From Selenomonadales bacterium (lineage in GTDB: Bacteria; Bacillota; Negativicutes; Sporomusales; UBA7701), in the NCBI GenBank assembly GCA_029975165.1, contig JARKPR010000051.1:1-35838 (forward strand): DNA of 35,838 nt, given 5' to 3'. Under the pieces are notes generated by a model. The model worked only from the letters and a program-made list of their open reading frames with translations. It made no database searches and was not told the DNA's origin. Below are positions 17,259-19,930 of this stretch, one piece after another. The translations under genes were made by a program, and so were the position numbers. Within the stretch, counting starts at the first letter, position 1. Each line of letters begins with the position of its first letter.

Positions 17259-17935
17259 GGTTGGGGGATTTCCTGTGGCTGGCGGGTCTGGGCGCCGTAG
17301 TGCTCGTGCTGGCGGTGCCCGCGACCCGCGAGCTGTTCGTGCTTTACAGCACGGCGCACCCGTACTGGATGGGGTTCGCGAAGTTCGCCGTGCTGGCCAC
17401 GATGGGCGAGCTGCTGGCGGTGCGGATCACGGGCGGCGGGTGGCGGCGGCCGGACGGCCTGCTGCTGAAGGCCGCGCTGTGGGGTGCGCTCGGGGTGGGC
17501 ATCACGCTGATGTTCACGGTGTTCGCCGCCGGGGTGTCGGCGGCGATCGCCCGGGGGATGCTGCCGGGCGGCTACAGCGCGACGGCGGCGTTCGTGACGG
17601 CTTTGCTGACCAGCACGGTGATGAACGCGGCGTTCGCGCCGACTTTCATGGCGTTCCACCGCATCGCCGATACGTATATCGACTTGGCGGACGGCAAACT
17701 GGCCAACCTGGCGCGGGTCGAGTTGCGCCAGGCGGTGGCGCGGGTGGACTGGCAGGGGTTCGTGGGGTTCGTGGTCCTGCGGACGGTGCCGCTGTTCTGG
17801 ATCCCGGCCCATACGGCGACTTTCCTGCTGCCGTCGGAGTACCGCGTGCTGATGGCGGCGGTGCTGTCGATCGCGCTGGGGGCGATACTGGCGTTCGCCA
17901 AGCGTCGTTCGCCGGCGATCAGGAGAATAAAGTGA
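17255..17935 (+). CDS. Uncharacterised multi-pass membrane protein at the end of the oxidoreductase operon
   Basis: A 226-residue hydrophobic protein with about five or six membrane segments: roughly 8-24, 44-58, 72-96, 112-130, 165-185 and 195-215. Polar stretches between them include LADGKLANLARVELRQAV. I recognise no transporter or enzyme family, although the layout is faintly like small Mpv17-type proteins. The GTG at 17255 overlaps the gamma-subunit stop by three bases, so it is translated with the oxidoreductase. A role in moving substrate, product or CO2/acid is possible but unsupported by motifs. The gene ends directly at a strong hairpin. Confidence 0.75.
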   Translation: MRLGDFLWLAGLGAVVLVLAVPATRELFVLYSTAHPYWMGFAKFAVLATMGELLAVRITGGGWRRPDGLLLKAALWGALGVGITLMFTVFAAGVSAAIARGMLPGGYSATAAFVTALLTSTVMNAAFAPTFMAFHRIADTYIDLADGKLANLARVELRQAVARVDWQGFVGFVVLRTVPLFWIPAHTATFLLPSEYRVLMAAVLSIALGAILAFAKRRSPAIRRIK

Positions 17936-17963
17936 GAGGCCGCACTACGAATAGTGCGGCCTC
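17936..17963. terminator. Bidirectional terminator-like hairpin between convergent genes
   Basis: GAGGCCGCACTA pairs perfectly with TAGTGCGGCCTC around a CGAA loop, between the stop of the + strand membrane-protein gene and the minus-strand Cys-X-Pro gene. No strong U-tract on the + side; on the minus side CACTTTATT follows. Confidence 0.7.
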
Positions 17964-17981
17964 TGGCCGTAAGGGGGGCGT

Positions 17982-18449
17982 TTAACCAGGGGGGAAGCAC
18001 TGCGGGCCGCAGGGGGGGGAACAGGGAACGCGCGGCCGGCAGTGGGGATTGCAGCCTGTGCTGGGGTTGCAGGCGGTGTTGGGGTTGCAGCGCGGGCGAC
18101 AAGAGGGATTGCAGTTGGGGTTGCAGGCAGTGTTGGGGTTGCAGCGCGGGCGGCAGTTGGGGTTGCAGTTAGGGTTGCAGTTGGGGTTGCAGCGCGGGCG
18201 GCAGAAGCGGGGCCGGCAGACAGGGAAGCAGGTGGTGGGGGGGCAGAAGGGCCGGCAGTTGGGGTTGCAGCCGGGCGGCGGGCAGGCCGGGTTGCAGCGC
18301 GGCTGGCAGTTGGGGTAGCAGGGGGTGCCGGTGGGTGGACAGCCTATGACAGCCGGCCGCTCGTCGTCGTCGTCCCATTCGCTGTCCCAGTCGTTCATTT
18401 CCGGGGCTTCCCATTTGGGGCGGTTAAGTTTTTCTTCTTCGTCGGCCAT
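17982..18449 (-). CDS. Cys-X-Pro repeat protein, candidate RiPP precursor or structural protein
   Basis: A 155-residue protein in two parts. Residues 1-36 are acidic with several Trp (WDSEWDDDDE near 21-30) and no Cys. Residues 37-155 contain 26 cysteines, and every one is followed by any residue and then proline. Most repeats are four residues (CNPN, CRPR, CNPS, CNPH); an 18-residue unit ending CRPR is partly duplicated. There is no signal peptide or membrane segment. It begins 6 nt after the stop of a radical SAM/SPASM gene, whose last codons contain its ribosome site (GGGAGGAA), so the two are coupled. An acidic leader plus a repetitive Cys core beside a radical SAM enzyme suggests a modified peptide. 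A spore-coat or metal-binding protein is the alternative. I know of no named family with this repeat. Confidence 0.8.
   Translation of the reverse strand: MADEEEKLNRPKWEAPEMNDWDSEWDDDDERPAVIGCPPTGTPCYPNCQPRCNPACPPPGCNPNCRPFCPPTTCFPVCRPRFCRPRCNPNCNPNCNPNCRPRCNPNTACNPNCNPSCRPRCNPNTACNPSTGCNPHCRPRVPCSPPCGPQCFPPG
18063..18200. repeat. Tandem DNA repeats within the Cys-X-Pro gene
   Basis: GGGTTGCAG-type 12-bp units recur (each encodes Cys-Asn-Pro-Asn on the minus strand). They are organised in a higher-order unit of 54 bp: TTGCAGGC at 18067 recurs at 18121, encoding an 18-residue block. The repeats suggest length change by slippage or unequal exchange. Confidence 0.75.
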
Positions 18450-18455
18450 GTAAGT

Positions 18456-19691
18456 TCATTCCTCCCATTTTCCCGTGTAGGGGTTATACGGGCAGTCCAC
18501 CGAACAGGCCAGCCAGCGTTTGGCGGCGTCCGAGCCCTGCGCCAGCGGCCGGCAGTCGGTGCAGGCGTAGCGGTATTCGCAGTCTTTGCATTTGTCGACC
18601 TGGTCCTTGGTGGTGTGCCAGCACTGCTGAAGGCGCTGCCCGTTAAGTACGTCCGCGAGGGGGGTGGCCAGTATGTTGCCGCAGATTTCGCCGCGGGCGA
18701 AGATGCAGGGGATGACGTCGCCGGCGGCGGTGACGGCGATTTTGCCGTGGAGGCAGCTGTGGCAGCTGTGGGCGCGGGCGAAGGTTTCGGGGTCAGTGTA
18801 GAAGGGGGGACGGATGGGCGGTTTGGCGTAGGCGGCCGGCAGGAGATCTTTGTCGTCGCCGCGGCCGGTGGGGCGGACGACGTCGGGCGGGGTGACTTCG
18901 ACGCCCAGCCTGGCGCACAGGTCCATGATGTTTTTGGCTTCGTGCTCGTTGGCTTTCATGACGATGGAGGCGATGCGCAGGGGGATGCCAGTGGCGAGGA
19001 TCTTTTCCACGGCGCCCATGGTGGCGGCGAAGCTGCCGGGGTTCAGGGTGACGCGGTCGTGGACGGTGGCGTTGTCGGCGTAGATGGTGGTGGCGATGTT
19101 GACGTTGTGCTTTTTGCAGAAGGCGACGCAGTCGTCGTCGACGAGGGTGGCGTTGGTGAAGATCTCGATGAATTCGTAGCCTTCGGCGGAGGCCTTTTCC
19201 ACGAGCTCCCGCCAGCGGGGGTAGAGGAGGGGCTCGCCGCCGATGAGCTGGATGGCGGCGGCGCCGGCGGCGCGGGCTTCGCCGATAAGAGAAAGCCACC
19301 TTTCGTGGGGCACGGCGTCGCTGTCGGCGCAGGGGCCGCTGGTGGCGTAGCAGTGGAGGCATCGGTTGTTGCAAGCGGCGGTGATCTCGAGCCAGAGGAA
19401 GTTGAGCTTGGGCGGCTCTTCGTCCGGGGCGCCGGCTTTGGCGGGGGTCGGCTCGGTTAGGTATAAGGAGCCGAGGCCCATGCCGGTGAGGCGGTGGAGG
19501 AAGTCGACGAAGGTTTTGTCTTCGGGGGCCTGTATGTCGAGGATGTCCTCCAGGGGACTCTGTTCGCAGGCGAGGAGGAGCTGGAGGGCGCCTTGATTTA
19601 CGGACAGGACTTTGCCTGTCTGGAGGTTGTAGATGGCGCCGCGGCTGGCACCGGCGACCAGCCGGCAGTATTCCTGGAGCCGGTAGTACAA
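18456..19691 (-). CDS. Radical SAM/SPASM protein, candidate peptide maturase
   Basis: About 411 residues. The radical SAM motif CNNRCLHC (cysteines at about 107, 111, 114) binds the cluster that cleaves S-adenosylmethionine. IGGEPLL, TNATLVDD and IYADNATVHDRV follow in the usual barrel order. The C-terminal SPASM region supplies auxiliary cluster ligands: SCHSCLHGKIAVTAAGDVIPC, then CKDCEYRYACTDC and ACSVDC. The first 85 residues (YNLQTGKVLSVN, then GALQLLLACEQSP) resemble a PqqD-like peptide-recognition domain, an inference from pattern. The TTG at 19691 is preferred: AAAGGGGGG lies about 5 nt before it, while an ATG at 19721 falls inside a TATTAT -10-like element. The next gene encodes the Cys-X-Pro repeat protein. 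AnSME-like or other SPASM roles are possible. Confidence 0.88.
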   Translation of the reverse strand: MYYRLQEYCRLVAGASRGAIYNLQTGKVLSVNQGALQLLLACEQSPLEDILDIQAPEDKTFVDFLHRLTGMGLGSLYLTEPTPAKAGAPDEEPPKLNFLWLEITAACNNRCLHCYATSGPCADSDAVPHERWLSLIGEARAAGAAAIQLIGGEPLLYPRWRELVEKASAEGYEFIEIFTNATLVDDDCVAFCKKHNVNIATTIYADNATVHDRVTLNPGSFAATMGAVEKILATGIPLRIASIVMKANEHEAKNIMDLCARLGVEVTPPDVVRPTGRGDDKDLLPAAYAKPPIRPPFYTDPETFARAHSCHSCLHGKIAVTAAGDVIPCIFARGEICGNILATPLADVLNGQRLQQCWHTTKDQVDKCKDCEYRYACTDCRPLAQGSDAAKRWLACSVDCPYNPYTGKWEE

Positions 19692-19807
19692 AAAAATCCC
19701 CCCTTTGCATGTTTGGTACATAATATGCTACCCGTATCCCCTGTGTGCATCGGGGCGCCGGGGGAGGCGCGGGGCGGGGGCGGGAGAATTTTCTGCCGGC
19801 GGCGCTG

Positions 19808-19836
19808 TTGACAGGCCGGGAAAAATCCGCTATAAT
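19808..19836 (+). promoter_or_regulatory. Consensus sigma-A promoter of tRNA-Gly
   Basis: TTGACA (19808-19813), exactly 17 bp, then TATAAT (19831-19836). All twelve consensus bases match. The tRNA begins 20 bp further on. Confidence 0.93.
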
Positions 19837-19855: not shown

Positions 19856-19930
19856 GCGGAAGTAGCTCAGTGGTAGAGCATCGCCTTGCCAAGGCGGGGG
19901 TCGCGAGTTCGAATCTCGTTTTCCGCTCCA
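19856..19930 (+). tRNA. tRNA-Gly (anticodon GCC)
   Basis: A full cloverleaf with encoded CCA. Acceptor GCGGAAG pairs with TTTCCGC (one G-U), followed by the D arm (GCTC/GAGC), the anticodon arm with loop TTGCCAA giving GCC, the T arm with TTCGAAT, discriminator T and CCA at 19928-19930. It reads glycine GGC/GGU codons. Confidence 0.97.

Follow-up and report, generated by a model that had tools for sequence, protein, structure and literature searches.

Among radical S-adenosylmethionine (SAM) enzymes, the maturases SkfB, CteB, AlbA and RumMC combine a recognition element for ribosomally synthesized and post-translationally modified peptides (RiPPs), the RiPP recognition element (RRE), with radical SAM and SPASM/Twitch domains, and their Cys-bearing substrates are encoded next door. 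The known substrates of sactipeptide and ranthipeptide systems are short peptides with few cysteines, and the SCIFF or six-Cys-in-45 ranthipeptides carry six cysteines in about 45 residues. Another SPASM enzyme, anSME, acts on a Cys in C-X-P-X-R, one Cys per sulfatase. The His-Xaa-Ser system (HxsA-D), known also from NCBIfam names, joins a fixed-tripeptide repeat protein to radical SAM partners. In this study, we analysed a contig of 35,838 nt from a Selenomonadales bacterium (GenBank assembly GCA_029975165.1, contig JARKPR010000051.1), the whole of which is called the window below. The organism belongs to the Negativicutes, which are diderm spore-formers. The window encodes a radical SAM/SPASM enzyme and, directly behind it, a small protein with 26 Cys-X-Pro (CXP) tripeptides. 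The explanation that we favour overall, and consider reasonably probable, is that the two genes form an operon switched on with sigma-K timing, that the RRE recognizes the head of the CXP protein, that the CXPs are modified one by one, with a thioether as the favoured product, and that the protein ends up in a spore layer.

The pair resembles the SkfB, CteB, AlbA and RumMC systems in its domains and in the neighbouring Cys-bearing substrate; the enzyme shares a seven-Cys SPASM motif with RumMC, and SkfB and CteB are its best profile matches in the PDB. It differs from the sactipeptide and ranthipeptide systems in that the putative substrate looks like a structural protein and repeats one tripeptide 26 times, in that a genome has several unlinked CXP genes, and in its sigma-K-type promoter, with no transporter or immunity gene recognised beside the pair. 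With 26 Cys in 119 residues, the window protein falls outside the SCIFF description. HxsA-D is alike in its fixed-tripeptide repeat and radical SAM partners, but has another tripeptide and other enzymes. The Clostridioides difficile proteins CdeC and CdeM are, like the CXP protein, Cys-rich and linked to sporulation, and belong to the spore surface (the exosporium). The nearest described idea, as far as the available part of the report goes, is the TvgA/TvgB poly-cyclopropylglycine system, in which a SPASM enzyme repeats one small change along a repeat motif, TVGG (PMC9062424); there, however, the target is Val, the motif is another and the five-gene cluster includes transporters. The word 'spore' appears nowhere in the available text of that report. 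No CXP radical SAM system was found in open PMC full text among the matches listed, subscription papers being outside the search, and neither Pelosinus nor Sporomusa occurs as a word in PMC4289311. The enzyme-CXP pair belongs to the radical SAM RiPP-like systems, and the CXP variant in its unusual setting is new to the searches made.

Both genes lie on the minus strand of the contig, with the following features.
19719..19746, minus: candidate sigma-K-type promoter, -35 AC at 19746-19745, 17 nt, -10 CATATTATG at 19727-19719
19697..19706, minus: ribosome-binding site AAAGGGGGGA of the enzyme gene, read from the sequence
18456..19691, minus: radical SAM/SPASM enzyme, 411 aa, TTG start
19437..19691, minus: RRE (PqqD-type winged helix) in the predicted structure, enzyme residues 1-85
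19350..19373, minus: CX3CX2C radical SAM cluster motif, C107/C111/C114, in 35/35 aligned enzymes
18492..18755, minus: SPASM domain with seven invariant Cys, C313-C400, in 35/35 aligned enzymes
18459..18466, minus: ribosome-binding site GGGAGGAA of the CXP gene, within the end of the enzyme gene, read from the sequence
17982..18449, minus: CXP-repeat putative substrate protein, 155 aa
18342..18449, minus: acidic, Cys-free, leader-like head, residues 1-36, motif PKWExPEM..W
17985..18341, minus: body, residues 37-155, 26 C-X-P tripeptides
17935..17964, minus: terminator-like 13-pair stem-loop 3' of the CXP gene, between convergent genes

The CXP gene lies 6 nt 3' of the enzyme gene, and its ribosome-binding site overlaps the final sense codons (Trp-Glu-Glu) of the enzyme gene; the layout supports a compact two-gene operon of a RiPP-like system. 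Terminator-like sites 3' of the CXP gene number two, against 2.4 expected from shuffles, and the stem-loop at 17935-17964 is kept as a terminator candidate because of its long stem. All 26 Cys of the 155-residue protein stand in C-X-P, with 17 of the 25 spacings equal to four and the rest 5, 6 or 7, whereas 20,000 shuffles of the 119-residue body gave a mean of 7.4 CXPs and a maximum of 16. An earlier note on this DNA had described just such an acidic, Cys-free 36-residue head before a 119-residue body of C-X-P mostly at period four, with the ribosome site of the gene inside the end of the radical SAM gene, and the counts and positions agree with it. Within the head motif, P11, W13 and P16 are invariant in 23 aligned CXP proteins. 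The window protein matches no Pfam or NCBIfam family (NCBIfam to E 0.1). The elgicin/penisin lantibiotic model touches six of the 23 relatives (best E 1.8e-4) and, among further ones, L067 and L155 (37.9 and 20.9 bits, cut-off 40); we take all of these to be matches of Cys composition. Cys-repeat precursor models such as Cys-every-fifth and CXXX-repeat, whose presence in the NCBIfam library was not confirmed, were not among the matches of 23 plus 9 CXP proteins. Some head-bearing CXP proteins (L140 991-1260, L069, L074 and L101) also contain stretches rich in Gly and aromatic residues, such as GFGFGGF and GLGIGFG, which precede or separate the CXP units and may be a second material-forming segment.

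The enzyme matches the Pfam families Radical_SAM (64.9 bits, cut-off 29.5) and SPASM (33.2 bits, cut-off 21.5). It starts at 19691 with TTG (residues LYYRL) behind AAAGGGGGGA, most of 19 aligned relatives starting with MYYRL or similar. The CX3CX2C motif and seven SPASM cysteines are invariant in all 35 aligned enzymes, with no further invariant Cys in the SPASM domain, and the spacing in the window enzyme, CX10GX4CX38CX2CX5CX2CX19C, is near the motif CX13GX4CX36CX2CX5CX2CX18C of the RumMC sactisynthase given in the available part of its description (PMC8188230). NCBIfam returned 66 matches, of which the 25 listed all lie far below their curated cut-offs, including the sactipeptide models StsB (79.9 of 625 bits), SkfB (68.6 of 300) and AlbA (56.6 of 850); the anSME model TIGR03942 is not among these 25 of 66, and reaches 67.6 and 52 of 349.45 bits in the relatives L135 and L064. 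A sequence-profile search of the PDB put SkfB clearly first (4.6e-23), followed by CteB (4.7e-11), both of them thioether enzymes, and did not return anSME at 1e-3. An AlphaFold2 model built from 35 sequences has a predicted local distance difference test score (pLDDT) of 91, and its nearest solved structures by VIA-align are SkfB (Z 23.0, 251 residues, 3.1 A), CteB (22.8) and SuiB (22.4), followed by viperin (22.2), ChlB (21.9) and anSME (21.5), with EpeE also among the neighbours. The structural ranking was rejected as proof of chemistry, the Z scores being nearly tied.

The first 85 residues, modelled alone, have a pLDDT of 93.8. Over 74-79 residues this model resembles the RRE of a lasso-peptide B1 protein (6jx3_B, Z 10.0), TbiB1 (5v1v, 5v1u; Z 9.5) and PqqD (5sxy, Z 7.8), and the 6jx3 and TbiB1 matches are RREs with bound leader peptides. 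The best Foldseek E value is only 2.3e-3, and there is no Pfam match at E 1, from the PqqD family or any other. The PqqD-type recognition domain that the earlier note saw here is thus borne out as a predicted RRE fold, though without a Pfam match. Motifs and predicted structures together support a three-cluster radical SAM/SPASM peptide maturase with an N-terminal RRE.

To follow the pair across genomes, we searched 60 related genomes, the window's own included, for the enzyme (E <= 1e-40) and for CXP proteins with A1, an alignment of head-bearing CXP proteins from 23 of the 25 close loci in which a CXP gene adjoins the enzyme gene (a motif filter missed L007 and L025). The enzyme is found in 41 genomes, A1 matches CXP proteins in the identical 41, and the other 19 have neither (Fisher p 4.9e-16, kinship not corrected for); at least one CXP open reading frame (ORF) was read in each carrier. 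A CXP ORF adjoins the enzyme gene in 25 of 30 close loci; four of the others (L008, L010, L017 and L031) have none beside it and L028 has a truncated remnant, while L017 has two CXP ORFs within about 3 kb. Among 38 named loci, 31 have a CXP ORF within 1.5 kb of the enzyme; the exceptions are L104, L111, L115, L124 and L127, the last with two CXP ORFs further off, and L128 and L138, where a contig end cuts the enzyme. The pairing extends to enzymes of only 32-43% identity (L131-L139) from Woesebacteria, Latescibacterota, Clostridia, a Deltaproteobacterium and an unclassified bacterium: a CXP ORF stands beside eight of these nine, in L132 with only the ORF end visible, and the ninth, L138, is truncated at the 5' end. 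When A1 was run on 198 further genomes from across the phylum, it gave two weak matches, in G132 and G082. We judge both false, since the first is a frame lying opposite a longer ORF and the second extends over 15 residues; because A1 misses the CXP ORFs of double-glycine (GG) type in G165, this negative holds only for the head-bearing type of CXP protein. The adjacency to this radical SAM clade that the earlier note had asked to be looked for is therefore present in most loci, and head-bearing CXP homologues regularly lacking the enzyme, which would have spoken against its proposal, did not turn up in the 198 phylum genomes.

CXP matches also occur away from the enzyme gene, in 38 of the 41 carriers (all except G017, G045 and G046) by a count of the A1 match places, part of which were read as sequence; the window's genome has three more such genes (L140-L142). 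A W..PE-like head motif was found in 38 of 47 unlinked CXP proteins read, with varied bodies (CFPRQ, CYPRR, GCRPRYY etc.). Because unlinked CXP proteins often share the head motif, one enzyme probably serves several substrates. A paralogue of 37-38% identity is a second enzyme in G002 and G004 and the only one in G003. In each of the clusters below, which lie in front of the paralogue, the small ORFs number three to six; they have a GG-type leader (VEKLTDEKLDKVSGG) and mostly CXP cores.
L062, 3267-5411: GG-leader CXP ORF cluster
L063, 2163-5697: GG-leader CXP ORF cluster
L064, 2315-5103: GG-leader CXP ORF cluster
No transporter was recognised among the ORFs read in the three clusters. A paralogue with double-glycine-leader CXP peptides is a plain RiPP layout. 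In G165, another genome of the phylum, two CXP ORFs stand upstream of a distant enzyme. Since the shared head occurs on unlinked genes and CXP cores also follow GG leaders, the head behaves as an exchangeable leader and CXP as a core, apparently one common to the members of a RiPP-like system. The putative precursor-maturase pair suggested by the earlier note is thus supported by the pairing, the predicted RRE fold and the GG-leader paralogue.

The rules of the motif were counted in hand-picked intact ORFs: 27 adjacent, 47 unlinked, 12 GG-type and 7 distant proteins, leaving out L025, L079, two L084 ORFs, L094/L121, L129 (masked), L157 and some GG-type ORFs. Cys falls within CXP in 419 of 424 cases in the adjacent set, 524 of 539 in the unlinked set, 56 of 61 in the GG cores and 87 of 92 in the distant set, where composition would give 81, 83, 11 and 15 CXPs. 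The X is nearly any residue, Gly and Pro included, and Cys spacing runs from 3 upward, the next Cys standing at +3 in 27 of the 87 distant CXPs. Since X can be Gly or Pro and +3 can be Cys, the target is probably Cys alone or a site within Cys-X-Pro. A thioether that links Cys with a fixed residue outside the tripeptide is disfavoured, because the +3 position can be Cys as well.

Sporulation provides the likely setting. With SpoIVA as a proxy for spore formation, 42 of the 60 genomes qualify, and 39 of them are among the 41 carriers (Fisher p 8.7e-10, kinship not corrected for). The pattern AC-N15-17-CATANNNT was sought within 200 nt upstream of 30 enzyme and 47 unlinked CXP genes and stands before 67 of the 77 (28/30 and 39/47), the window's operon included; 48 of the 67 matches have exactly CATATTATG. 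Shuffled regions gave means of 1.7 in 30 and 2.2 in 47 (maxima 6 and 8), the reverse strand gave 2 and 7, and 133 of 2724 200-nt segments of named close loci match with the enzyme promoters counted in. According to the available part of one study, AC at -35 separates sigma-K from sigma-E, and a sigma-K-type promoter of sigK carries CATATAAT with AC (PMC3789822). On this pattern, sigma-K probably switches the genes on late in the mother cell of spore-forming Negativicutes, and the CXP protein is most likely a mother-cell protein, probably of the spore surface, in these spore-formers. The earlier note had offered a modified spore-surface protein as an alternative to the RiPP pair; the SpoIVA and promoter counts make it the probable setting of that pair rather than its competitor.

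In the mechanism that we propose, the RRE probably binds the acidic head (PKWExPEM..W), both on the CXP protein and on several unlinked CXP proteins in the same cell. The enzyme would then work along the body, altering the Cys of each C-X-P in turn: the Cys thiolate may occupy an open site of auxiliary cluster I, a radical may form within the same tripeptide, on Pro or X, and the sulfur would capture it, leaving a small thioether ring at each CXP. In the available part of one source, the auxiliary clusters are fully ligated in anSME and also in SuiB and PqqE, whereas CteB and SkfB have an open auxiliary site (PMC6231123). The SkfB and CteB profile matches, the seven-Cys SPASM domain and this difference in ligation favour a thioether over formylglycine, with modest confidence. 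Given the mother-cell sigma-K timing, the modified Cys- and Pro-rich protein would probably go into the spore coat or the outermost spore layer, where it may harden or seal that layer.

Several observations weigh against this explanation. Two carriers, G055 and G017 (65% complete), have no SpoIVA match, G006, G032 and G050 have SpoIVA and neither enzyme nor CXP gene, and the promoter pattern is missing at 8 of 47 unlinked CXP and 2 of 30 enzyme genes. SpoIVA occurs in 173 of 199 genomes spread over the phylum and the enzyme in only two, with an accepted A1 match in the window's own genome alone; CXP as a general sporulation trait was therefore rejected, and the trait is a lineage-specific one. 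The Woesebacteria, Latescibacterota and Deltaproteobacterium relatives are not known to us to form spores, so the system may first have served outside them. In G003 (87% complete), counted among the 41 carriers, the 38%-identical paralogue is the only copy of the enzyme. Kinship among genomes and among sites means that the counts are not independent. With SkfB, CteB, SuiB and anSME scoring almost alike, the chemistry cannot be read from the fold.

It is unlikely, in our judgement, that the enzyme oxidises each CXP Cys to formylglycine, as anSME does, so that a poly-aldehyde body would cross-link through Schiff bases to amines of other spore proteins. In favour of this view, the known formylglycine sequon C-X-P-X-R is built around CXP, the SPASM enzyme anSME folds similarly (Z 21.5 across 292 residues, less than 2 units below the top match), X tolerates nearly any residue, and Arg is frequent at +3 (320 of 524 unlinked and 152 of 419 adjacent CXPs). 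Against it, Arg is scarce at +4, with 47 of 524 cases in the unlinked set and 4 of 56 in the GG-type set, and does not figure among the eight most frequent +4 residues in either the adjacent or the distant set; the +3 residue is Cys in 27 of the 87 distant CXPs. The anSME alignment spans model residues 95-402 only, with the RRE outside, and anSME misses E 1e-3 in the profile search, which SkfB and CteB reach. The seven conserved SPASM Cys, with no conserved eighth ligand, also stand against the fully ligated anSME clusters described in the accessible part of PMC6231123.

We give an equally small chance to the view that Cys is left free, the enzyme epimerising or otherwise altering Pro or X or forming a non-thioether bond, with the Cys then serving in disulfides or metal binding in the coat. 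The same fold is found in radical SAM enzymes that epimerise residues or form carbon-carbon bonds (EpeE, SuiB), and X is often aromatic in the unlinked set (193 Phe and 103 Tyr of 524), but only Cys and Pro are fixed in the motif, and X, which may be Gly or Pro, is not a likely target. Less probable still is that the CXP protein is a plain spore protein that forms disulfide cross-links or binds metal, merely co-regulated with an enzyme that acts elsewhere. Cys-rich proteins without known radical chemistry do occur in spore coats and exosporia, and 5 of 30 loci have no intact adjacent CXP gene; against this, the pairing holds at 32-43% enzyme identity, also outside Bacillota, the enzyme has a predicted RRE fold, and all five of the genomes concerned have CXP ORFs at other places, with a head in G009, G022 and G052 at least.

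Several relatives of the locus deserve mention in their own right. A Woesebacteria genome (L131 5001-6579), from a group far outside the spore-formers known to us, carries an enzyme-CXP pair. In Latescibacterota, the L132 enzyme carries a PqqD domain (PF05402) fused to its C-terminus, and a deacetylase-like gene of PIG-L type, recognised from its sequence, lies downstream in L132, L133 and L138. In a Ruminiclostridium sufflavum (Clostridia) record (L129 4300-6230), a CXP gene that is masked in part lies upstream of an enzyme with 63% identity to that of the window, possibly through lateral transfer or contamination. In Sporomusa silvacetica (L115 / L028 2736-2837) the adjacent CXP gene is cut short just after the head, and four unlinked CXP ORFs are present (L073-L076). 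The CXP protein of a Deltaproteobacterium (L139 6277-6843), which adjoins a 39%-identical enzyme, has a twin-arginine-like N-terminus by visual reading and a C-terminal peptidoglycan-binding domain (PF01471, 57.2 bits); its sub-threshold match to the HxsA model (33.8 bits against a cut-off of 121.65) is confined to that domain. Around the window's operon, a tRNA-Gly gene (19856-19930) lies upstream, preceded by a perfect sigma-70 promoter match TTGACA-17-TATAAT (12/12; 19808-19836, plus strand) divergent from the operon. Trigger factor and Lon-type genes (Pfam) and clpP-like and clpX-like genes (recognised from sequence) also lie upstream, and 2-oxoacid oxidoreductase and ptb/buk-like genes converge from the other side.

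These results suggest a previously undescribed way to modify one spore protein many times over. We regard it as about an even chance that part of the spore surface in spore-forming Negativicutes is built from unlinked sigma-K-controlled structural proteins, every C-X-P of which receives the same new radical SAM modification from one enzyme in trans; RiPP chemistry would then be a developmental hardening step and not an antibiotic or signal, and CXP chemistry an old portable module used also on double-glycine-leader peptides and an exported peptidoglycan-binding protein. If this is true, a radical SAM RiPP maturase would be a morphogenetic enzyme of the endospore, making dozens of identical modifications per protein on several substrates per cell. 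It would bring a new post-translational modification that is easily tested, with one tripeptide and clear mass shifts, and an enzyme tolerant of almost any X in C-X-P that would be useful for peptide stapling. It would also give a molecular handle on the Negativicutes spore surface.

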